A stretch of DNA of 64,000 nt from Leptobrachium leishanense (lineage: Eukaryota; Chordata; Amphibia; Anura; Megophryidae). Position 1 is the first letter of the stretch; each line of letters opens with the position of its first letter. Below, piece by piece: positions 15,815 to 60,680 of this stretch. The position numbers were made by a program, and so were the translations under genes. The stretch is from positions 39,301,519-39,365,518 of the forward strand of contig CM019072.1 in the NCBI GenBank assembly GCA_009667805.1, read 5' to 3'. The notes beneath the pieces were generated by a model. The model did not search any database and was not told the origin of the DNA. It worked only from the letters and a program-made list of their open reading frames with translations.

Positions 15815-16575
15815 CCTAAAGAGTGTAATATCCTCGCAAGGGGTTTGTCTTATGTCCCTACCAACACCCCACAGGAGCTACAATGGAACATTGATCTATA
15901 TAAATTTGGTCGCTATCTTAGAATCACAGATTTTTTCAAAAACTAGCACAGCACGGTAGTCACGAAGTTTCACCCCAAAAGCAGCTTTGATCCAATTCCG
16001 AATCAGGCCTCAATTAAAACGTTCCTAAAGGTTGTCCAAAAGGAAACATCGGACACATTGAAACATCATAAACCTCACCATCAGAATATGTCCAGGGAAG
16101 AATGGAGGATGATTAGAAATTTGGCCAATAATTCATCAATAACGATACGGGCTGCGGACAAAGGAGGCTCTATAGTGATAATGGACTACGCACAATATGT
16201 GCAGGCGATATACCTGTTGTTAGAAGATGTTACTACGTATGAGAAATTACAGGGTAATTCAACAACTCGAATACAGAATAAATTTGGAGACACCTTTACT
16301 AGAGGACTACAGATGAACTACATCAGTCAGGAACTATTCGAGTTCCTTACGAGGATACATCCAAAGACCCCCATACTTTATGGGATTCCAAAAATTCATA
16401 AGAACTTGACGAATCCACCAATGCGTCCTATTGTCTCCGCCTTAGGAGGCGTCATCGAACCAGTAGCTCAATGGCTGGATAATTTATTTAAAGCCCCGGT
16501 GTATGATATCCCTACCTATGTAAAAGGTACACCTACAGTATGTTTGGTTAAGAACATATTTTACTCTATAGGTGT
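15815..16575 (+). pseudogene. PLE reverse transcriptase, N-terminal part
   Basis: Two frames are needed. The first (to a TAG near 15945) holds the conserved N-terminal block, including LARGLSYVPT and LYKFGRYLRITDFF. The second, open from 16058, contains TIRAADKGGSIVIMD, the usual PLE finger motif, then ILYGIPKIHKN (about 16374-16406) and MRPIVSALGG (about 16423-16450), which precede the catalytic palm in PLEs. The frame remains open past 16519, but similarity to PLEs fades at PTYVK, where the intervening sequence begins. It would copy element RNA at the insertion site. Confidence 0.8.
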
Positions 16576-17272
16576 CACTTGGTGCATCTATTGTTCGTAC
16601 CTTTGTGTTGTAAATCCCCCCACCACACACACACACACACTATCTTTACAGCACTTGCTCCTCCCTGTGTGGCGTTGAGCATAGAATTTAATGAATTGGC
16701 CAGAAGGTCCAGTAAACCAATTTACATCATTGTATTGTGTGGGATGTATTCAAAGGACATCACAAGGGGGTAGACTAGAATTCTTTTATGATCCCTGTTT
16801 TATCTAATTCAGGTGCCATCTCTTATCACAGTCAGCCTGAAGAACAATCGACCTCCTGCAGCCTTATCTAGCTACCTCACTAACAGATAATGTAGATTAA
16901 ATAAACAAGAGCCGCAAAGCTTTTAGTAAATGTTGCATCATGGGGAAAAATACACAAAATGGAAACAAGATCAAAGCCTTATCATAGCATATCTCATTCA
17001 GCTGCCATCTCCTGTCTCAGCATACAAAACACAATAAATGCCCTGCAGCCTTATCTAAGCATTCATTCCTCCACCCCATTGCCTCTTCAATTTTGTAGAA
17101 GCTATATTGCAGCTGTAAAATTAAATCTTTGCACAGATTTTGGTAAATGTTGCATTATGGGGAAATCCACCAAATGGAACCAGGAGAAATAAAAATCCTA
17201 ACTTTTATTTTTCCTTTCTATTTACAGCATTGGGGTTTGAATAATTTTGAATACAACTGTATGTTCCTACAG
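16520..17272 (+). other. Intervening sequence in the PLE RT: candidate intron or insertion
   Basis: RT homology stops after DIPTY and resumes at about FLQRLTS (17264). A donor-like GTAAAAGG sits at 16520, exactly at a codon boundary. An acceptor with a pyrimidine-rich tract (TTTCTATTTACAG) ends at 17227 and another (TTCCTACAG) at 17272, both also at codon boundaries of the downstream frame. Removal would therefore keep the frame. PLEs are known to retain introns. Against this, the segment holds two tandem units of about 200 bp (16795-16975 and 16983-17190, sharing TGCAGCCTTATCTA and AAATGTTGCAT.ATGGGGAAA), which could mean a later insertion. Confidence 0.5.
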
Positions 17273-18111
17273 AGACTAACATCGATAAGGACAGACTTAG
17301 CCAATACAGTACTAGTAACTATGGACTTAAAAAGCCTCTATACAATCATACCACATGAGGCAGGGATAGATGCCATGAGGGAGCTATTATCTGGATCTGA
17401 TAAATATGATGGCCCATGTGTAGAATTCACTCTGAAATTACTATCAATGGCACTTCAAAATAACTATTTTAGGTTCGAGAATAATTGGTACCTACAAAAG
17501 ACGGGAACATCAATGGGGCTGCAATGGCGCCGATGTACGTGAACGCTTTCATGTACAAATTTCAAAAGGAATTCATTTTGCCTAAGTTTGCATTAAACAT
17601 TATTGAATACATACGGTACATAGACGACGTGTTCATCTTATGGCGTGGATCAATAGAAGAAGCAAGGAATGTGGAAATGAACATTAATGGGCTGGGATCT
17701 CCAGTGGAAGTCACTTTACAAGCAAGTGAGTTGAGGATACAGTTCCTAGATGTTGAGATCTATGTAAAGGATGGCAGGTTGGAATACTCCCTGTACTCGA
17801 AACCTACAGACAGGAACACTCTACTGCATGCTTCAAGCGCTCACACTGAGCATACACAAAAATCTCTACCCTATGCGCAATTCCTTAGGGTATGCCGCAA
17901 TAACTCTGTGGAGTTGGGTCGAACACAACAGTTACAGGAGATGTATAAGAAATTCAGGGAACGGGGCTATTCTGTTAAAGTCCTGGATTCTGCGCTTGGA
18001 CGTGCCCTACATCCTGAGAGGAGGAACCCCAAGGTTGATATGAGGTTGAGGTTTCCTATGCAATTTAATACTGCCACAAATGATTTAACTGGAATAGTGA
18101 AAAAGAATTGA
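17228..18111 (+). pseudogene. PLE reverse transcriptase, catalytic palm and thumb
   Basis: The first frame carries motif A, VLVTMDLKSLYTIIPH (about 17312-17359), with the catalytic Asp. Motif B appears as TGTSMG in one frame and AAMAPMYVNAFM in the next, so a one-base deletion lies near 17518. Motif C is YIRYIDDVFILW (about 17606-17641), with the paired Asp residues intact. Thumb sequence with LRIQFLDVEIYVKDG and YSLYSKPTDRN follows, and the frame ends at TGA 18109-18111. The same frame continues after that stop as HVLEHDPSLPN, so the TGA probably replaced a Trp codon. A single polyprotein with the endonuclease is expected in intact relatives. Confidence 0.85.
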
Positions 18112-18117
18112 CACGTA

Positions 18118-18711
18118 TTGGAGCATGATCCCTCTTTACCAAACATCTTTAAATACAGACCAATGTTTTGCTACAAAAGGGGTAGGAACCTTAAGGACCT
18201 GTTGGTCCAAATGGACCCTGTGAATAGTTACACACCGGCACCTAGCGGTTTTGTGAATACTGGTTGCAGGAGATGTTTAGGATGTGTCACGTGTGGACAT
18301 ATGATCCCCTCCAAGACCTTTACGCATCCACACACAGGGAAAGTGTTCAAAATACGCTACAACATAACATGCAAAATGGACCATGTGATATATAAAATTA
18401 CATGCCCCTGTGGCCTCGCTTACATAGGAAAGACCATAACGCCTTTGTACGAACGGATCAGGAACCATTGCTCGAATATACGCATAGCATATCGGGATAG
18501 TACATCAGACAAGCCTGTAGCGCGTCATTTTTTGGAATTGAATCATCCATTGAGCTCATTAAAGTTCATGGCAATTGACCACATCCAAGTGCCACGAAGG
18601 GGAGGTGATCGTGGATTAATGTTGCTGCGCAAGGAAACCTTTTGGATCCATCAGTTGCGGACAATTCACCCGGATGGACTGAACGAAAAGATGGTGTATT
18701 CCATGTTTTGA
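18118..18711 (+). CDS. PLE GIY-YIG endonuclease domain (C-terminal part of broken ORF)
   Basis: This is in the same frame as the RT but behind an in-frame TGA, so it is a domain of a disrupted polyprotein and not a separate gene. Residues 18-50 or so hold the connector (FCYKRGRNLKDLLV). A Cys-rich finger follows, CRRCLGCVTCGHM (about 18268-18306). The nuclease core is VIYKITCPCGLAYIGKT with LYERIRNH (about 18387-18468), giving the GIY...YIG pair as IYK...YIG, the conserved Arg, and His in the helix. The frame closes with TFWIHQLRTIHPDGLNE and a stop at 18709. In active PLEs this domain nicks target DNA to prime reverse transcription. Confidence 0.85.
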   Translation: MEHDPSLPNIFKYRPMFCYKRGRNLKDLLVQMDPVNSYTPAPSGFVNTGCRRCLGCVTCGHMIPSKTFTHPHTGKVFKIRYNITCKMDHVIYKITCPCGLAYIGKTITPLYERIRNHCSNIRIAYRDSTSDKPVARHFLELNHPLSSLKFMAIDHIQVPRRGGDRGLMLLRKETFWIHQLRTIHPDGLNEKMVYSMF

Positions 18712-19149: not shown

Positions 19150-19189
19150 GTCCTGAGGAAAGCTCTAAACGAGGAGCTGAAACGTTGAC
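19150..19189 (+). ncRNA. Hammerhead-like motif of PLE 3' end
   Basis: GTC (19150-19152) pairs with GAC (19187-19189) as stem I. CTGAGGA (19153-19159) and GAAA (19179-19182) give the two core strands. AGCTC (19161-19165) pairs with GAGCT (19174-19178) as stem II. Stem III is only AC/GT (19182-19185) with no loop. The layout matches the minimal hammerheads described in PLE terminal repeats, which may need dimers. Confidence 0.6.
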
Positions 19190-31978: not shown

Positions 31979-32966
31979 TTAAGGAGGTCTCTTATGAGAC
32001 TTAATGATAGAACTGGCAACAGCAAAAGCACCTCCTTGTACAAATCTCACAAAATAGTCTCCAACAAGTGGTCCAACTGCATAAAGTCCCTTTTCCTGGA
32101 CACATTCATATGTAAATAGGTCAATGTCTAGAGGGTTCCTCTTCGAATTCACTGGTTTCTCATTGTTTACCGCTAGATTAGTGCCATCATTTGGCAGAAA
32201 TGAAAGGTTGGGATTAGCACCTATGAGAACAAAGGCCATTGAGATATTAAATATTTTGGACTGGCCGTTCTTGTCTTTGAATGTGCATTTCTTGTCACTA
32301 TGGAAGCTAGTTATATGATGCTCTGGGAGGCTGATGTATCCTTCATAAGGACCATCCCTGGAAACGCTCTGTTCTTTCATCATTTGGTGCACTTTATGGT
32401 ACTCTGGATACATGACTTGGGGCAGTTGATTGAATATAAGCCCTGGGTCATTGACCCGTCTCCTGAAGGCATGAATAACGGGAATGTTATAGTGATGAGC
32501 GAGTAGAACAGCATCAGCAGCAGTCAGTCCTGCCCCGATAATTAACACTGGGTCTGAGTGTTGATTAATTTGATGTGTCTTCACTGCTTTCTCCAACTCA
32601 GAAATTTTGTGTGATACAAAAGGAAGGTCTTCTCCTTGGACCCCTAACAGTGAAGACTTGTCATATGTACCTGTAGCAAGCACCACCTTCTCTGCATAGA
32701 TACAAAACTCCTGCTTGTCCCCAAACTCATTTTCCAAAAACCCATTTACTTGGAAAAGAGTTTTGTCATCTTCACTGTTGTCCGCATGGATGTTCCTCAT
32801 CCAGAGTATTTGGTTTCCACAACAGCTAGTGGAACCTTTGTTAACTTTGACAACTGAGGTAACTGTTGCACCTGAAATAAAGTTATCCTCCAGACCTTTC
32901 TTTTTCACATAATAGCGGTAATAATTTAGTATGTCACCTGCGGTGGATCTGTCATTTCTAAGGTTC
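31979..32966 (-). CDS. OSGIN1: OSGIN1 exon 5 (last coding exon)
   Basis: Acceptor TTTTGTAG at 32968-32967. The exon opens in phase 2 (completing an Arg codon) with NLRNDRSTAGDILNYYRYYV, and runs through KKKGLEDNFISGA, the second nucleotide-binding motif IIGAGLTAADAV, YPEYHKVHQMM, and KRNPLDIDLFTYE, to GLYAVGPLVGDYFVRFVQGG. It ends KSHKRPP and TAA (31981-31979). It encodes about two thirds of the protein. An isolated reading of this exon would wrongly start the protein at KKKGL. A Tyr follows GPLVGD where I recall Asn in relatives. Confidence 0.95.
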
Positions 32967-35900
32967 CTACAAAAGAGAAAGAAAACTACAGGTTAAATGC
33001 TACTTTATGATAATTTATAACAGAATTAATTAAAAGCTAGCCAATGTATCACACGTTCGAAGCCCAGAATGTTTCAAGTGGACATTTTCCAATATAAGAC
33101 ATCTTATAGTATGTATTCACATTCCTATGGAGGGATGACCTTCAAATATCACTTACGACATCTGGAGAGAGTTACAACCCCATTTTTACTTATGTGGGTC
33201 TTTTCAGATAAAATTAACTCTTCCTACCACACACATTCAATTTCCACCTCATAACATATATTATTGTCAGAAACCAATTCTCACAAGCCTGAACATATTT
33301 AACAAGGCCCCATTTCGTAGGGTCAGGGTCATCCTTTTGACTTTGTGGTTGCTTTCTTTTTTATTATTCTAAGTTTTTCTTTAAACATTCCTCCGCCCTG
33401 AAGGTATTTTCAGTATGATCAATGAAAAAGGTTAATGATTTGACATCTTACAAAACAACCATTTCTATACTCATTTTTTTTTAACCATATAACCACATGA
33501 TATATTTAACTTATATTTCTGATAGGTAGAGAAGGACTACCATTTATTCCTGTTCATCTATGTATCTTCTGGGCATTGACGAGTGAGCAACATTGGTCCT
33601 TCAGATGTTTTAGAACTATATCTCACGTGATGCTCAGCCACTCGTTAGAATGGCCAAGCCTCTTGGGAAATGTACTTCCAAAACATCTAAAGGGCCAAGG
33701 TTGCCGATCCCTGGACTACAGTATTAACTATCACTTCAGTCTAAAATAGCACTACACAGTTTATTCACTAAGCAGTAAATTAGCAGTGAATTGAGGCAGT
33801 TACACAATGTAGGACAAAATGTTTGAGTTGAACATATGTGAGAGAAAAAATAAATCAGCTGTGTTGGTATAGAGCAGTGTTTCTCCAACCTCTCCTCGGG
33901 ACCCCCAACCAGGCCAGATTTTACCGATCACCTTGGGGAAATGCAGACTGAATCCTGTAATAACTGGGGAGCAAATCATATCCCCTGTGCTGTGCTTCAG
34001 ATATCTGGAAAACCTGGCCTGGTCGGGGGTCCCGAGGAGAGGTTTGAAAAACACTGGTCTTGAGTAACTCTATGCAGCATCACTGATAATCTGTTTAATT
34101 TGAGGAATTGCTGATTCATGTACTGATGAGAACTAAATAACTACTGTAGGTCTTAGGACATCATAGGCTCATGCTTAAAGTGGTTCTTACCTCCTTTTCA
34201 TTCTTATCCATTCTTTGAAAGGCAGATCTGGGAGACCCATCCAGTCGCCCCGGCTCAGTGTAATCATAGATCCTTCGATGACCTAAAATGAAAATACATA
34301 TTGATGTAAGATCAATAAATGAGACTTGTTAGAATAGGCAAATGTTAAATTCACATTCATCTTGAGAAAATATTCTCCAACACAGTCACTTACATTCCAG
34401 GCACCCCCTGGAGGATCTCTCCCAAGCACCAAATGAGTGATTGCCCTCTCTGGCTCTAGTTCCCATGAAAGAACAGAGTCCACATCACCAACAAAATCTG
34501 TGTTGGGTCGGAGAAGAGTATCAAAGAGGAGAGCAGCAGGGCTGTTTGACCGACCCTCCAACCCTTCGGATAGGTACTCCAAATCCTGCAGGGAAAGAAA
34601 AGGAGTAATTAAATTGATGTACCTCACACCCATCAGGTGTACGTTTTAATTAAGGATACTTTAATTTATTCCTAGCTGTCAATTTGTATATCTTCCTTAT
34701 TATATATCACATTTATTATATTTGCCTTTTCAATCCTTCCTTTAATTGGTCTTTATATTAACTTGCATAGTTTTCATTTGCACAATATCAGTACATTTAT
34801 AGGTCTATTCACTAAAGGTGAAACTCTGGAGAATTGGTAGGAAAAGAGAACAATCTAGACCAAATAGCCATTTTGGAAAGTGAGATAAATTGGAGAATGT
34901 TTCTGGTTTGGCCATTTTGACCTAGAATTTTCACTTCTCCTGCCAATTCTCCTGAGTTTCACCTTTAGTGAATAGACCTGTTAATATTCTATATAAGTGG
35001 AAAAGATGCAGAAGCTTCGGGACAACAAACGTTGAACAATACATCATTCCTCACTCAAGAGGTTAAATCTAATGACACAAAGCAGACAAGGCATGAGGGC
35101 TTCTCATAATAGGCCACACGTCTCTGAACTGACTTCCTGGTATTATACATTTACATAGCTTTTGAACCGAGGCCAGATGATCTAGACTGTCAGATGCTGT
35201 GATCTTTCCAGGCATTCACTGACAGTGCCTTAAAGGTCATGTATTCTATTCACTGGAAGGCACATATAAACAGTTTGGAATTAACTCTTTAATGTGCATT
35301 TAGTGCAAACATGTCCTTTTGATAAGGTTTAACATTTTATCAATGCCGTATATCAGCTCCAATAAATTTCTCACTGTAGCGTTTCCTGCGTGTATATTTA
35401 ATGTGGGAAGCAGAAGTAAGCACTACTTTATAATGCAATCCAGAAACATCCAGTGGGGAACTGAAACCAAACTCATAATCACTACTGACCACAGAGGACC
35501 TACACACAGTTCCAGGGTGTCCTTTCTTAAAGTAAAAGTATACCTCACTAATTATTACCACTTTGACATGACCGTGGCCTTCTTGGACTAGGCCAATGAT
35601 GGCTAACGTCCGCACACCTTTTATTTTGTACCTCTGTGTTCCAGAATTCAATCAGCTTTCAAGCTAGATGGCCAACATGGGACTTGGCAAACATCTAGCT
35701 ATGTATTTACCGTTTAGACTCTAAATTCACTTTATTCCAAACTGCAGGTGACCCAGTCCCAGTCTTATTTATGGCAAAAATACTGTATTTTCGGGTTATG
35801 ATCGAGTTGCAAATATTGCAATGAAGACTATAAGTTTAGGGATATAATAAACTGTTTCCTGCTGATGTATACAACATATAACACAGGGCTTGTCATCAAC

Positions 35901-45494: not shown

Positions 45495-45768
45495 GCAGAA
45501 TTATCGTATCGACAGAATTATCGTATCGACAGAAATATCGGATCCGAAAAACCATTAGTTTACGTCAAAATGAATAGACACTTTGAAACGAGGAGAACAG
45601 ACGTTTCGAAAAACACGAAAATTTCCGAAATTACGAAAAAAAGTCGATACGAAAAACGAAACGAAAAACGAAACGAACTGAAACGGAAATCGGCCGAAAC
45701 GAAAATTTACAAAATCCGAACGAACCAAACCGAATCGAACCGAAAAAAAAATCGGTGCACAAGTCTAT
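45495..45768. repeat. CGAAA-rich repeat end, partner of 1-88
   Basis: Dense CGAAA/ACGAAA words, two ATTATCGTATCGACAGAA units, and the terminal block shared with 1-88 (AACCGAATCGAACCGAAAAA, ATCGGTGCACAAG). Probably one terminus of a hAT-like element. The other end may have been replaced by the 33-bp array. Confidence 0.55.
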
Positions 45769-47573: not shown

Positions 47574-49493
47574 ACTGCCATTCAGATCTCTCTTCAACGA
47601 TGGGGCTCAATTGAAATGTGCACCTGTAATTATTTCAGGGAGAGATGAAGGGTGTGATCTCATATCTACATAATTAATAATTAGTGCATTCACAAAATGT
47701 ATACACAAACAGTCAGGCATGATGATGACGACTTTGGCAATGTGCTCTGGTAAAACAAGTGTCTGAAGGGCATTCTGAGGATATTTGATTCTTTCACCAA
47801 TCGGCAACTGCAAAGAACTGCTGTTTAGAAACATTTTGTTATGACGCAAATCTAAATTGCCCTTAAGTGCCATTCTGGAGTATATGGGTACATAATATTC
47901 ACTTATGGACATTTACAGTTTCTGGCTGAAGAAGCGTCTCGGTAAAACCTGAAGTGTCTCGGTAAAACCTTGTGTCCATTCCTTTTATTGATTTATTTTA
48001 ATAAATTACCTATATATTTTAACCCCATACTGGCTAGTCTCTCCTATCTGTTCTAACATCAACCCTGGAATCCATCAGCACATTATCAATATCGGCTGCT
48101 GAGACAAAGAGGTTTTGGGCATTCACCTAAGAAGTGCCTGACGCTATATAGATCGAGCCTACTTATATAGGGCTCCTGCATCGGTGAATGTATTTTTAAA
48201 TACATATTTTCCCGTTGTTTCATACCGTATTATACTATGGGAGCGCCGCCTCCCAATTTTTTGTGTTTTATCTAGTGGACATTGCAGATTAAAGAAGGGA
48301 AGCGCCACTCTTTATATGGCCAGAGGCACACATACCTAGAGCCGGGATTTGTCTAAGGCTCATGCAAATATGAGTGGGCTGGAACCCTTGTTATTTTTAA
48401 TTGGGACCATCTGTTGTAACCATCTACACTATTATTCCTGTGTTTCCTTTTATTTTTGAGAAACATTGAGTACTACAGGGATTCGCTATAATTCATCACG
48501 GAGGATCAAGTTAACTCTTTGAGTATCATTTGACTTATTTTGGACTTTTTTACACAATCGGACTTATAGCCTCATTTCATGAATGCTTGTTGAAATGATA
48601 ATAAGCACTGTTGCACTTTATTGACTATTGACACAATATTTGTACCACTACTTCCACTTTTATTCAATCTTTATTTATTGATGCGCTACTTTCACTTCTA
48701 TTTAATCTTTATTCATTGATGCGCTATATGGTACGTTTTGTTGTTTACATAATAGTAGTATTACTCAACATAAGATTTGTGATAGACGGCACCACCTTTA
48801 AAACTTGTTTCACGCCAGGGCTTAGTTTGTGGGGGATCCTGAGGAACATGACATGGAACCTCTCAGCTTTTGGCTTTCTGTGGTCCAGGTCCTATTTGGG
48901 TGGATCCGGTACCTCATGTGGTATAAAACCAAAAATAATAGTTTTAAATTAGTGCCATAACATTTATATAATGCAACTTATTAGTTCGTGGACATTTAAG
49001 TAGATAGCACGTTGCTTTCAGGACCTTGTTCTGTACGCATTATGGGACCTGAGGCTGCTTCATCAGTCCTCTGCTCCCATATACACTTTGCAATCCACCA
49101 CCTTATGACTTACAAATTAAGAACTGTCTCATGAATTTCTTTACATTTATCAAGAGATTTGCCTTGTTGTGGTGAGTGAGCTTATACTTATAATGGGCGT
49201 TACAAAAGAGCCTCATCCACAAATACCACAGAAGACTTCAAGCTGTCATTGATGTTAAAGGGGGTAATACACAGTATTAAGAACTGGGGTATGTAAACTT
49301 TTGATCAGGGTCATTTGGGTAGTTTATGTTGTCATTATGATTTAAAACAAGTAAACATACTTGATTGATGATAAATGGCTTCAGTCAAACACTAACCATG
49401 AGTGGAAGAAATTTTTGTGTGTTATCATTAATATTCTCTGAATAATGGCCAAGAAATCATAAATTCTGCCAGGGTATGTAAACTTATTAGCAC

Positions 49494-49497
<4 letters not shown>
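47574..49497. other. No gene seen; repeat-like stretch at 47930-48640
   Basis: 47935-47970 contains a short tandem duplication (GAAG.GTCTCGGTAAAACCT). The text to about 48640, with TTTTATTGATTTATTTTAAT and GAGCGCCGCCTCCC, looks like a retroelement 3' region, but I could not place it. The rest is featureless. Confidence 0.35.

Positions 49498-49541
<44 letters not shown>
49498..49541. repeat. (TA)n microsatellite
   Basis: About 22 TA units. Confidence 0.95.
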
Positions 49542-49543
<2 letters not shown>

Positions 49544-49559
49544 ATCTGTTATCCCAGCA

Positions 49560-49781
49560 CTCACCTATCCTCACAATTCGTCTACAATGATGAAAGCCAC
49601 AGTGCTTATCCCAAGGGAAAAGTATGCATTCAGCATCAGAGAAGGCTGCACACGTGTATTAAAACAAAATAAAGGTTTATTTCAAATCACTAAAAAATTG
49701 ACCGTTTTGACCCTCACAGGAGCCATTCTCAAGGTTGAGAATGGCACCTGTGAGGGCCGAAACATCAGTCAATTTTTAATG
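49560..49781. repeat. Inverted-repeat arm, partner of 51002-51055, with hammerhead-like remnant
   Basis: 49630-49690 (CATCAGAGAAGGCTGCACACG, GGTTTATTTCAAATC) is the reverse complement of 51001-51050. Within it GACCCTCACAGGAGCCATTC and GAATGGCACCTGTGAGGGCC form a further inverted pair followed by CGAAACATC, reminiscent of the GAAAC strand in the PLE ends. It reads as two PLE-like 3' ends facing each other. Confidence 0.55.
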
Positions 49782-49928
49782 ATTTGAAATAGGGATGCAC
49801 CGATACCACTTTTTTAAGACCGAGTACGAGTACCGATACTTTTGTTCAAGTACTCACCGATACCGAGTACCGATACTTTTATCTTATGTCATGTGACCGC
49901 TTTCCAATAAGAACAGACCTCATATAAA

Positions 49929-50385
49929 GCCCCCAGGTCTCATGGATTTGCCCTCCAGCTCATGGATAGCCCCCCAGCTCATGGATATGCCCCAGCTCAT
50001 GGATAATGCCCCCCAGCTCATGGATACTGCCCCCCAGCTCATGGATTCGCCCCCCAGCTCATGGATATTGCCCCAGCTCATGGATAATGCCCCCAGCTCA
50101 TGGATATTGCCCCAGCTCATGGATAATACCCCCAGCTCATGGATATTGCCCCAGCTCATGGATATTGCCCCAGCTCATGGATAATGCCCCCAGCTCATGG
50201 ATAATGCCCCCAGCTCATGGATAATGCCCCAGCTCATGGATATGCCCCCCAGCTCATGGATATGCCCCCCAGCTCATGGAAATGCCCCAGCTCATGGAAA
50301 TGCCCCAGCTCATGGAAATGCCCCAGCACATGGAAATGCCCCAGCTCATGGATATGCCCCAGCTCATGGATTTGCCCCCAGCTCA
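49929..50385. repeat. 19-22-bp minisatellite
   Basis: More than twenty units of the type CCCCAGCTCATGGATATGC with length and base variants. The period generates repetitive ORFs on both strands (AHG/SSWI and MSWG repeats) that are not genes. Confidence 0.92.
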
Positions 50386-50399
50386 CCTGGAGCTCTCCG

Positions 50400-50855
50400 C
50401 TCATACTTACCTTCCTTTAGCGACGCCGGGAAAGTCTTCGCGCGCACGCTCCTTGGAAGGTCCCCAGCCGCGACCACGTGGGACCATGTGATCGCGGCTG
50501 GGGTCCTTCCAACGAGCACACGCGCGGAAACTTTCCCGGCGTCGCTAAAGGAAGATAAGTATGAGCGGAGAGCAGCTGCAGGGCCTGTCTGAATGCTCTA
50601 TCGGCATTCGGACAGGCCCTGCAGCTGCTCACTTTGTTTATACTTACCTTCCTTTAGCAACGTCGGGAAAGTTTCCGCGCGTGCGCTCGTTGGAAGGACC
50701 CCAGCCGCAATCACATGGTCCCACGTGGTCGCGGCTGGGGACCTTCCAAGGAGCACGCGAAGACTTTCCCGGCGTCGCTAAAGGAAGGTAAGTATAAACA
50801 AAGTGAGCAGCTGCAGGGCCTGTCCGAATGCCGATAGAGCATTCGGACAGGTGCC
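50400..50855. repeat. Large compound GC-rich palindrome
   Basis: A unit running CTTACCTTCCTTTAGCGACG...CCCCAGCCGCGACCACGTGG and its complement occur twice (50405-50555 and 50640-50795), each itself a palindrome. They are joined by inverted CTGCAGGGCCTGTC.GAATG blocks (50575-50625, 50810-50850). GC content is far above the surroundings. Confidence 0.85.
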
Positions 50856-51065
50856 CTAGCCCCTAGGATGCTGGCAAGCCGGCTCAATGCCGGCTTCCGG
50901 TATCGGAAAAAAATATCGGGGGTACCAAGTACTCCTGCAGTACTCGGTATCGGCACCGATATTGATACTAGTATCGGTATCGGTGCAACCCTATTTTGAA
51001 ATAAACCTTTACTTTTTTAATACACATGTGCAGCCTTCTCTGATGCTAATATATATATATATATA

Positions 51066-51144
51066 ATCTACAAGGGTTGTGGTGGAGGACAAAATGTGAG
51101 GCTTTTTATCTCACTTTTTGTCCTCCACTACAACCCTTGTAGAT
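51066..51144. repeat. Long hairpin upstream of the hammerhead
   Basis: Two 35-nt arms (ATCTACAAGGGTTGT..GTGGAGGACAAAA..GTGAG and complement) pair with two mismatches around a short GCTTTTTAT loop. Confidence 0.9.
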
Positions 51145-51176
51145 ACTGATTTGCCCTATGGGTCCCAAGCATCCAC

Positions 51177-51266
51177 TGCAACTGGTCATCGTGCCTAGCT
51201 CCTAGCTGATGAGGGTCCAACAAACCCGAAACAGCGCTGTCCTAGGAGTGGCATTGACCAGTTGCA
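51177..51266 (+). ncRNA. Type I hammerhead ribozyme
   Basis: All core elements are present. Stem I: TGCAACTGGTCA (51177-51188) pairs with TGACCAGTTGCA (51255-51266), TGCC with GGCA, and CTCCTAG (51199-51205) with CTAGGAG (51242-51248), with small internal loops TCG/T and TAG/T. Core strand CTGATGA is 51206-51212. Stem II is GGGT/ACCC with loop CCAACAA. GAAA is 51228-51231. Stem III is ACAG/CTGT (51231-51240) with a tight loop. Predicted cleavage follows C51241, in the context GTC. Small internal loops in stem I facing the stem II loop fit the tertiary contact of fast natural hammerheads. It lies in a PLE-like repeat, so self-processing of element RNA is the likely role. Confidence 0.88.
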
Positions 51267-51648
51267 TAAACCTTAACTCTGCTAGAAAGCCACAGTGTGG
51301 CATAGCATTGATTTTAGGGTTCTGTGTAATAACAGACCCAGGATGCATAAAAGTAAGACAGATGTCATTTGCATATCCTACCCAGAATTCCTTGCTGCAT
51401 ATGGGGAATGTGGCACAGGAGCTCTGGGATGCAATTCATTGAATTGCTGTGATGTGCAAGTGGCTTCTGCAATTATATATATACAGGTATATATAATGTT
51501 TTGAATGTATTTTGTTTTGTTATTCCTGATTAAAGTCCACGGTTAGCGGACTGAAACGTTGAATCTTCATTTATTAAAGAATTTTCTAAGGAGACCCAGA
51601 GTGCCACCAGCGTATTTGTACGCACAGAAGGTTATACAGTATATACTG
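51267..51648 (+). mobile_element. PLE-like repeat 3' segment
   Basis: Non-coding sequence from the hammerhead to (TA)n. It has the reduced hammerhead-like motif at 51522-51564 and then AGACCCAGAGTGCCACC, parallel to CCTGGAGTGCCG after the motif at 19150-19189. It is probably the terminal part of a PLE related to 15523-19254. Confidence 0.55.
51522..51564 (+). ncRNA. Reduced hammerhead-like motif
   Basis: ATTC, CTGATTA, stem AGTCC/GGACT with loop ACGGTTAGC, GAAACGTT, GAAT. Stem I ATTC/GAAT and stem II pair. The core reads CTGATTA in place of CTGANGA, so G8 is lost and it is probably inactive. Confidence 0.45.
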
Positions 51649-52200
51649 ATATATATATATATATATATATATGTAGTTTGTGTAGTGTAATACGTCGTTT
51701 GAAACTTATTTTTGTCCTTGGTAGTGTTTGTTACCTGCCTAGTGTTTATTACATTAAATTGTTGTTATTGCTCAAGGTATAGTATTTGTGACGCATATTA
51801 ATCATTTTCATGTGACTACATTTATTACTTCTCACACTATCAAAGTAATTAATGTTTGACAAGAAAGAATAAAAGTTGTCCAACGGTCGTCAGCGAAGCA
51901 CGCCAGACCATGTTTAGATTATCTTACTAGAACTTTCCACCAAGAGGTCATGTTTTATGTCGTAGCACACCTTCACAACCTACTTAATAAATAAATAAAG
52001 CATTCTGAACCAGTTAAGTCATATTTCCAAGCACGTTCCATAAAAGAGAAAATGACTCTGTAGCACTCAAATGTCTTTTAAATTCACCAGACCTCAAAAG
52101 AATACTCTGTATCACACCTGGGATTATTCCTAGAATTAACTATTGCATTGTCTGATTTTCTCCTCAGTAGGTGCCACCTTTTCGTGGGAAAAAAAACAGT
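51649..52200. other. (TA)n and DNA with no feature seen
   Basis: TA microsatellite at 51649-51672. Nothing recognised afterwards. Confidence 0.5.
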
Positions 52201-52204
52201 GGCC

Positions 52205-52412
52205 ATGTCTACAAATGTACCGGCTGAGTGGAGTAGAGGTAACATCGCTGCTCTATGACTGTGGAGACACAGGTTCAAATCCCAGCAAGAGCACCTCTCC
52301 AATAAGTGTCCTTGGACAAGACACCTAACGGTACATACTCGCCACCCAGGACATACTTGAAAATGAGAGAAATCTCAATGTATCCTTCCTGGTAAAATAC
52401 TTTCTGAAAAAA
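52205..52412 (+). mobile_element. tRNA-derived SINE (V-SINE-like), near complete
   Basis: Box A-like GGCTGAGTGGAGTAGAGG (52220-52237), box B GGTTCAAATCCC (52272-52283), central GTGTCCTTGGACAAGACACC, and the shared LINE tail to about 52400. Same family as 23062-23262, opposite strand. Confidence 0.87.
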
Positions 52413-53190
52413 ATCAGCATAATTAATTGTGACATCACATAACCAGATCAGATGTATAATTGGCGAGGTCTGAATTGGTGTCTATTTTGTGGAGTCACGT
52501 CCATTTTGCAAGCAAGGACACCTTTTTTTTTAAGAAAGGTGACAAGCCTATGACCTGAGGAACTTTAGTTTTGTTTTTAATTTTTTTACTTTTTGCGAGT
52601 GTTTGTTAACATATTGGAGACTCATTGGTTTTTTTTCTGTGTATATTTACGATTTGTTTCTAACACAGCGTGTAGGCAGTGCTGGCTTGTCCATAGGGAC
52701 AGGAGGGGCAGCCCCCTCCCATATTATTTGGAATAAAAAAAAAATTAAACATAATTTTTTCCTGTTGTTTTTTTGTGTCATTTAACATGTGCCTGATTGA
52801 TAACATTTGTTATGCCCCTTTAAGCAGTGTCATTGTCTCCCCAACTGATGCTAGGCAGAGTAAAAAAAAAGAAAGAAAGATTACGTGACTATTATCCTGT
52901 GACCGGCATCCAGATATCTGATAAGGGCTCCATGGAGAGCAAAGAAACAATATCTGCATGTACGTCTTCTCGCAGCTGCTTGCGCAGGATCAGGTTCCTA
53001 TACATATAATAACTGTGAGTGTATCACAGCTCCACTGGGTAGTCTGTTTTTTGCAAATTTTGCAGGTTTCATGATTTTTCCAAGGGATAGTCTCAGTTCT
53101 GGCATTTCAGGTGATTCCCTGAGGTAATCCTTAAAAGTTGGTCTGTTAGTGCTACCTGAGGACAGCTTTGGGAAACACTGTTCAAGAACA
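52413..53190. other. No gene seen; MITE fragment near 53100-53180
   Basis: 53150-53180 (GAGGACAGCTTTGGGAAACACTG) matches the right end of the CAGTGTTTC hAT-MITE family, so a partial copy lies just left of 53194. Confidence 0.45.
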
Positions 53191-57012: not shown

Positions 57013-58556
57013 TTGCTGTGAGCAACTACCGTCCGATATCGTTGCTCCCTGTAATGTCAAAAATTTTGGAAAAATGCGTCTACACACAATTACGTGATTA
57101 TTATCAATATTGGAACTACTTAACCCCAGATCAATCAGGCTTTCGTCCAAATCACTGAACTACAACCACCCTTTTAAAAGTTTGTAATGATATCCAAGCT
57201 GGGATGAAACAAGGAAACCTAACTGGAGCCATCTTCCTTGATTTTGCCAAGGCCTTTGACACAGTAGACCATGGCATCTTGTTAGATAAACTTAAAAACT
57301 CTGGCATTGGTGATCGCACGCTAACCTGGTTTCAATCATATGTATCCGACCGATCACAATATGTGTCAAATTCTGGCAGCTCCTCCCTCCCCCTCCCTGT
57401 CACTTGCGGTGTACCCCAAGGCTCAATACTAGGCCCCCTGCTATTCACAATATTCATAAATGATCTGCCCAATGTCTGCAAAGCCTCAACTGTACATATG
57501 TACGCAGACGACACCGTAATCTATACCAGCAAACCAAATCTCCTGTAGCTGGAAGCCGTGCTGCAAGAACAATTCACAGAGGTAGAAAAGTGGATCAAAC
57601 ACAACAAACTTTTTTTAAATACTGACAAAACTGTAACGATGCTCTTTGGAACAGCACCTAAACTACACAAATTGCAAAATCCCCATCTATGTGTTGGGAC
57701 AAAATCAAATGGCACGCTGACCGCAGTCACTTCTCTCAAATATCTAGGTATGTGGTTGGACCCTAATCTATCCTTTGGCCCCCACATTGAAAAACTTTCC
57801 TCTAAACTTTACCCCAAACTAGGTGCCCTGTACAGAAACAAATCCTGCCTGAGCCCCGCGGTAAGAAAGCAGATTGTACAACAAATGCTTATGCCAGCTA
57901 TTGATTACGGAGATGTAGTGTATGCAGCCGCCCCGCAAACACACCTTCAGAAACTTACTACATTGTATAACTCATTCTGCCTCTTTGCATTACAATGTAA
58001 CTACATGACCCACCATTGTGACATGTTAAAAGACCTAAACTAGCCATCGCTGGAGTCTAAACGCACCCTTCACCTTTCCAGCCTGGTCTTTAAGAGTATT
58101 TCTGGGAAGCTGCCACCCTACCTGAATAGACTGCTTCCCCCAGCAGCTCCCTCATCCTATAACCTCCGATCCAGGACCAGCACCGTACTTGCAATACCAC
58201 AATACAAAAAGACAGTGGCTTGGTCCTCATTTTCCTACAGAGCACCACAATTATGGAATAACCTCCCAGACACCATCAAATCTTCCCCCAGTCTTAAGTC
58301 ACTCAAGAGCTCCTTACTAACATACCTCAATACAGAATGCACCTGTAAACATGTAACATAATGACTATTTCCTACATATTTATTTTCTGTTAATCTGTAT
58401 ATTTGTGTTGTTTTTTTAATATATTGCATTGTATTACTTTGTATTTCTGTAACTGTAACACTTCAATGTTCTTGAACCCAGGACATACTTGAAAATGAGA
58501 GAAATCTCAATGTATCCTTCCTGGTAAAATACTTTATAAATAAATAAATAAATTAG
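57013..58556 (+). mobile_element. L2/Rex1/CR1-group LINE, 5'-truncated, with shared SINE tail
   Basis: Begins inside the RT at AVSNYRPISLLPVMSKILEK. Motif A is AIFLDFAKAFDTVDHGILLD (57220-57279), motif B GVPQGSILGPLLF, motif C YADDTVIY (57500-57523). Thumb and C-terminus follow (VTSLKYLGMWLDPNLSFGPH, SSYNLRSRTSTVL, APQLWNNLPDTI), ending at 58361. In-frame stops near 57156, 57546 and 58041 disable it, but divergence is modest, so it is a fairly recent copy. The 3' UTR ends in CCAGGACATACTTGAAAATG, GAGAAATCTCAATGTATCC and (TAAA)n, the tail borrowed by the SINE family. Confidence 0.92.
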
Positions 58557-60060: not shown

Positions 60061-60267
60061 TGCATCCATTTGGATTGTTTATATATATACATATTGGATT
60101 TTTGCACCCAGGCAGTGAATTTAACTAACATTGATGGCAAAGAGACTGCTGGTTCAAATTTGATGAATATATATGTATATATGTAGGAATGTGGGTTTGT
60201 ATCGTTATTGAAGGGCGCTTTTTTTTTTTAGCAGAGATAAGGTTATGCAACTGGTCAAAGCCACTCA

Positions 60268-60680
60268 TATATATATATATCTAGGTAGATTGTTGCAGAT
60301 AAAAATAAATTTACCAACCTACACATAATAGGCGCACCTGTGTTGGACGTAACACTTGTGTTGTGCGCCATACGCCTTACGTCCAACACAGGTGTGCCGG
60401 CTTGATTTACTGCCTGCGCAACCTCCGACGTAGCGGTACACGACTGAGTGGTGAGTTTACAATTTTAGTATTTAAGTATGTATGTGTTTTACTTTGTACC
60501 CCTTGATGAAGGCTCATGGGAGCCGAAACGTTGGGTTTTTAATGCATACCGAATAAAGATTTTCAATTTTACAAGTCCCGGTGTGCACTTATCTATTTTT
60601 CCATTTTATATATATATATATAATGTGTAGGTTGGTAAATTTATTTTTGTCTGCAACAATCTACATAGTTGTCCATCCAT
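60268..60680. repeat. PLE-like end flanked by 50-bp inverted repeats
   Basis: 60276-60330 (AGATTGTTGCAGATAAAAAT, AAATTTACCAACCTACACAT) is the reverse complement of 60622-60667. Inside, a palindrome ACCTGTGTTGGACGTAA/TTACGTCCAACACAGGT (60339-60395) and the hammerhead-like motif at 60500-60534. Confidence 0.7.
60500..60534 (+). ncRNA. Hammerhead-like motif, decayed
   Basis: CCC, TTGATGA, stem GGCTC/GAGCC, GAAACGTT, GGG. Stem I CCC/GGG and stem II pair. The first core base is T where C is required, so cleavage is unlikely. Confidence 0.45.

Follow-up and report, generated by a model that had tools for sequence, protein, structure and literature searches.

A type I hammerhead ribozyme motif close to a Penelope-type 3' module in a frog-like genomic repeat

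Hammerhead ribozymes from interspersed repeats of Xenopus tropicalis are described as strikingly similar to the intronic hammerheads of RECK and C10orf118 in mammals, and an amphibian mobile element has been proposed as the origin of the latter (PMC3088659), a proposal with which reviews agree (PMC6155905). A supplementary legend to the former paper further notes a 10-bp palindromic stem III in dimers (PMC3088659). The hammerheads of axolotl retrozymes, which combine a short stem III with a palindromic loop, were reported to be 6% and 22% cleaved in one hour as monomers and far more as dimers (PMC7229834). Penelope-like elements carry minimal hammerheads in their pseudo-LTRs, and these are described as natively devoid of stem III (PMC7761336). 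A Penelope enzyme reportedly favours AT-rich targets (PMC11167929). In the experiments reported for it, hammerhead mutants left insertion in vitro unchanged and no RNA ends were seen at the hammerhead site, which speaks against cleavage being required by that Penelope element (PMC11167929). Here we describe a hammerhead in a 64-kb stretch of DNA (the window, to which all coordinates refer) and compare it and its surroundings with these systems.

Architecture and significance of the hammerhead at 51177-51266

The motif is a type I hammerhead made up of the following features, all on the forward strand:

51177-51266 (+): the whole type I hammerhead motif, open at stem I (sequence; descriptor scan with nulls; Rfam HH9 match below the gathering score)
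51206-51212 (+): core CTGATGA, C3-A9 (sequence)
51213-51227 (+): stem II, GGGT (51213-51216) paired with ACCC (51224-51227), 7-nt loop CCAACAA (sequence)
51228-51230 (+): core GAA, G12-A14, with A231 next (sequence)
51231-51240 (+): stem III, 3 bp capped by the loop GCGC, 10 nt, ACAGCGCUGU (folding)
51241-51242 (+): predicted cleavage site, after C51241 (position of GTC 51239-51241)

All invariant bases of the type I core (C3UGANGA9, G12A13A14, A15.1-U16.1 and H17) are present, and the intact core claimed in a preliminary description of this DNA (CTGATGA, GAA(A) and GTC) is confirmed from the sequence, as is the 4-bp stem II with its 7-nt loop (GGGT/ACCC, CCAACAA). Stem I had been given as 12+4+7 bp. 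Its helices hold, with an inner helix of 7 bp adjoining the core (51199-51205/51242-51248), a middle helix of 4 Watson-Crick bp plus one extra G.U (51191-51195/51250-51254) and an outer helix of 12 bp (51177-51188/51255-51266); the interruptions are UAG/U between the inner and middle helices and a UC bulge before the outer 12 bp. The 4-bp stem III that had been claimed (CAGC/GCTG) was rejected, since its loop would have zero bases; only 3 bp (A231-U240, C232-G239 and A233-U238) closed by a GCGC loop can form. The result is a three-helix, stem-I-open arrangement (stem I 7+5+12, stem II 4 and stem III 3 bp), which is not the predicted minimum-energy fold.

That fold, at -45.5 kcal/mol, pairs the core CUG with the CAG of stem III and is not a ribozyme. 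The best fold with the core kept unpaired was predicted at -41.2 kcal/mol, about 4 kcal/mol worse, and the ribozyme as drawn at -39.7 kcal/mol with stem III and -39.5 kcal/mol without it, so that stem III contributes only 0.2 kcal/mol; none of these energies takes in tertiary contacts. The mismatch-free pairing put forward earlier as a sign of activity therefore loses its force. However, ACAGCGCUGU is self-complementary, and two RNAs could pair over all 10 nt at a predicted -16.9 kcal/mol. This stem III palindrome resembles those of amphibian hammerheads whose dimers cleave better than their monomers, so that cleavage of the monomer may not be fast. The stem I loop (UAG/U) and loop II (CCAACAA), between which a type I hammerhead would make a tertiary contact, are both present. 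The earlier expectation of fast cleavage at cellular magnesium is likewise unsupported, because the internal loop of stem I, as drawn, amounts to no more than UAG/U and amphibian monomers with a short palindromic stem III are reported to cleave poorly (PMC7229834).

Core patterns of this type are not rare by chance. The pattern CTGATGA...GAAAC was found once in the window against 0.24 expected and was matched by 23 of 100 shuffled sequences, and the looser CTGANGA...GAAA was found six times against 4.3 expected; the core pattern alone is thus weak evidence, and the strength comes from the stems. When stems were required, a descriptor scan of both strands of the window matched the 51177 site alone. 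Permissive stem lengths (I at least 4, II at least 3 and III at least 2 bp) gave one match in 600 first-order Markov windows and 14 in 5,000 second-order windows, while strict lengths (at least 7, 4 and 3 bp, respectively) gave none in 5,000 simulated second-order windows, all of these thresholds having been chosen after the site was seen. The earlier judgement that chance was very unlikely is borne out by the strict result. The 90-nt stretch also folds better than any of 200 shuffles (-45.5 kcal/mol, z -6.4). This whole-stretch z-score was rejected as strong evidence, because a long stem I alone yields such a value.

An Rfam scan of the 64-kb window returned nothing at the gathering threshold. 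At a relaxed threshold, the vertebrate family Hammerhead_HH9 (RF02275) was the only one of 4,227 families matched at 51100-51350, with a score over 51189-51262 of 27.7 bits against the gathering score of 52; the search reports the best family per clan only, so that HH10 and Hammerhead_1 would not be listed beside it. The covariance check proposed with the preliminary description therefore fails formally, although the match is still significant, with an E-value of 3.9e-5 on 251 bases (0.01 on 64 kb). The relaxed scan of the 64 kb listed 30 matches, mostly to microRNA families below their own cut-offs; those around the locus lie below their gathering scores and coincide with hairpins. We judge the 51177 hammerhead to be a divergent relative of HH9, a significant match but not a filed member of the family. 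The type I hammerhead at 51177-51266 is real, well beyond chance.

Penelope-type modules in a frog-like window

The window holds seven [CT]GAAACGT sites. A trailer of approximately CCYGGAGTGC lies 43-55 nt past GAAACGT at five of the seven (14686-, 19178+, 51552+, 59999+ and 60524+), against a background of 660 in 127,760 positions, an enrichment that is not an independent test because the trailer consensus was derived from the same five motifs. All five trailers are followed by (TA)n, and all five sites have a stem II. The remaining two sites (43116+ and 45608-) have neither the trailer nor a (TA)n run, with a possible stem at 45608. These motifs and the Penelope-type coding sequence of the window are as follows:

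14710-14680 (-): minimal-hammerhead-like motif with CTGAGGA, followed by the trailer and (TA)n
15947-18708 (+): Penelope-like element, broken into several ORFs, with reverse transcriptase (RT) and GIY-YIG (18112-18708); its best relatives come from Pelobates and Pelodytes
19153-19184 (+): minimal-hammerhead-like motif with CTGAGGA, followed by the trailer and (TA)n
51526-51604 (+): Penelope-type 3' module, comprising a degenerate minimal hammerhead (CTGATTA, stem II, GAAACG; motif 51526-51558) and the trailer CCCAGAGTGC
59999 (+): GAAACGT motif without a CTGANGA-type half, followed by the trailer and (TA)n
60503-60530 (+): minimal-hammerhead-like motif with TTGATGA, followed by the trailer and (TA)n

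Two of the motifs lie 3' of Penelope-type coding sequence: the 19153 motif 445 nt beyond the GIY-YIG coding sequence (18112-18708), and the 14710 motif 414 nt beyond a Penelope-type C-terminal coding sequence (15213-15124 on the minus strand, 20 of 30 residues alike). They are therefore 3'-end modules of Penelope-like elements, and the five trailer-bearing motifs apparently represent a Penelope 3' module. The preliminary description had taken the other hammerhead-like motifs of the window to have lost core bases or stem III. This was a misreading, given the trailer and (TA)n common to five of the seven, the position of two of them 3' of Penelope-type coding sequence and the reported native absence of stem III from Penelope hammerheads (PMC7761336). 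Their derivation as decayed copies of the 51177 hammerhead was also considered and rejected, as the trailer is common to them and they have only weak matches to the 51177 stretch.

The Penelope-type ORF at 17485-18108 also points to the host. Among 135 candidates, 18 protein relatives were found at E<=0.001, the best at 48% identity: 11 from Pelobates cultripes, one from Pelodytes ibericus, two from Ranitomeya imitator, one from Xenopus laevis and three without a name. With 15 of the 18 named as frog, the window is frog-like, and the earlier placement of the hammerhead in a frog-like genome repeat is upheld by these relatives and by a second, partial copy of 46 bp that the window contains.

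Other features were observed elsewhere in the window. An FMO-like open frame of 337 aa at 31979-32992 on the minus strand contains a pyridine nucleotide-disulphide oxidoreductase domain and had no structure-bank match by sequence. A fragment of another retroelement's reverse transcriptase lies at 57159-58040 on the plus strand (RVT_1, 57159-57545). Large inverted repeats at 50403-50851, with arms of up to 96 nt at 95%, adjoin a 20/39-bp tandem array at 49929-50385.

A candidate non-autonomous element and its rivals

The 51526 module is situated 320 bp downstream of the 51177 hammerhead (core to core) on the same strand. The further features that bear on a possible element are:

51049-51065: (TA)n tract, putative upstream flank of the element
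51066-51144 (+): 79-nt hairpin with 35-nt arms, 94% complementary, between (TA)n and the hammerhead; possible 5' part of the element
51649-51672: (TA)n tract, putative downstream flank of the element
60225-60269 (-): partial copy of 51243-51288, 41 of 46 positions identical with one gap, and (TA)n directly upstream

From this one locus we infer that 51066-51648 may be a single short non-autonomous element of Penelope type, with the qualification that the window has many (TA)n tracts. The (TA)n flanks would agree with the AT-rich targets reported for a Penelope enzyme (PMC11167929). A second copy of the whole 51066-51648 stretch was not found within the window. When the non-coding parts of both Penelope copies were compared with the hammerhead stretch, there was no significant match, only weak matches of 15-17 bases. 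RT or GIY-YIG coding sequence beside the 51177 hammerhead was found neither in the 20 of 43 long ORFs that were scanned nor by tblastn with the Penelope ORFs of the window. A non-autonomous element would be without RT and GIY-YIG coding sequence.

The partial copy covers only sequence 3' of the cleavage site, and ends in a run of A without the 51526 module. Because a (TA)n tract precedes it, its first sure match is G51246, and the copy therefore starts within 1-5 nt of the base that would follow the cut. Such a copy would fit the product of a cleaved RNA, but a single case cannot show it.

The locus is probably best explained as a genuine HH9-like type I hammerhead on a short interspersed repeat of a frog-like genome, with 51066-51648 being a non-autonomous element that uses Penelope-type RT machinery in trans. 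The element would be reverse-transcribed in trans by that machinery, and the hammerhead in its RNA would cut after C51241, mainly when two copies pair via the 10-nt palindrome. The cut would release a unit with a defined 5' end. A bolder version, which we put forward tentatively and think rather unlikely, is that one short frog element joins a canonical type I hammerhead to a 3' module of Penelope type, in which a degenerate minimal hammerhead is followed by the trailer and (TA)n, is mobilised in trans by Penelope-like elements, and has its hammerhead set the 5' end of new copies. The start of the partial copy at 60225-60269, so near the cleavage site and directly behind a (TA)n tract, would fit this role. 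If true, this would link retrozyme-type hammerheads directly to Penelope machinery and provide a possible source of the amniote intronic hammerheads.

An unlikely alternative origin is from an amphibian non-LTR retrozyme, of which the locus would be a dispersed monomer; the hammerhead would then free RNA of unit length for circularisation and copying back. The locus shares with axolotl retrozymes a type I hammerhead with a short palindromic stem III (PMC7229834), and the hammerhead-like motif that comes next on this strand is 320 bp away, near the axolotl unit of 330-350 bp. That second motif, however, is of Penelope type rather than a copy of the first, and TRF on 49400-53000 (longest period 500) detected no tandem array of the retrozyme kind and no tandem repeat of unit size.

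It is also conceivable, if quite improbable, that the element is a dead fossil, long immobile and no longer cutting, whose core is intact by chance survival. The altered core (CTGATTA) of the Penelope-type motif in the same stretch, the non-ribozyme best fold and the Penelope ORF of the window, broken into pieces, would all agree with such decay, whereas the hammerhead itself still has every stem paired and all of its core bases. Chance, in the form of a long hairpin with a fortuitous hammerhead-like core, could account for a core pattern that alone recurs in 23 of 100 shuffles and for a score under the Rfam gathering threshold. It would be an extraordinary coincidence, however, when none of 5,000 simulated windows contained such a core with stems this long and the sole match among 4,227 Rfam families was to a hammerhead family (E 3.9e-5 on 251 bases).

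Comparison with known systems

The literature searched, with subscription journals mostly outside it, yielded no paper on the 51177 repeat and no description of a short frog element that unites a canonical hammerhead with a 3' end of Penelope type. No related locus was found in viral contigs, bacterial and archaeal genomes, or phage and plasmid records, none of which is expected to contain frog DNA.

The ribozyme itself is of a familiar kind, and hammerheads in frog repeats have already been described. Like the hammerheads of Xenopus, RECK and C10orf118 and the HH9 family, it is of type I, has a CTGATGA and GAAAC core and sits in an interspersed repeat of a frog-like genome (PMC3088659), a likeness to Xenopus that is judged by the published description. 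It differs from HH9 in its score (27.7 bits against 52), an additional 12-bp outer helix in stem I, a stem I internal loop smaller than the consensus and a 7-nt loop II. The short stem III with a palindromic tetraloop is shared with the non-LTR retrozymes HHR_Amex1/2 of the axolotl and satellite 2 of the newt (PMC7229834); stem III at 51177 has two pairs beyond A15.1-U16.1, a pair that the published Amex counts omit on our reading of them. Unlike these amphibian retrozymes, no head-to-tail array of approximately 300 bp was found at 49400-53000.

A motif like the minimal hammerheads of Penelope-like elements (PMC7761336, PMC11167929) is found 320 bp further downstream on this strand, with a trailer and (TA)n common to four others in the window, and may belong to the same element as the 51177 hammerhead. 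The latter differs from the minimal hammerheads described there, which lack its true stem III and long stem I (PMC7761336, PMC11167929). An intact hammerhead beside a Penelope-type 3' end provides a specific candidate for the agent that mobilises such ribozymes.
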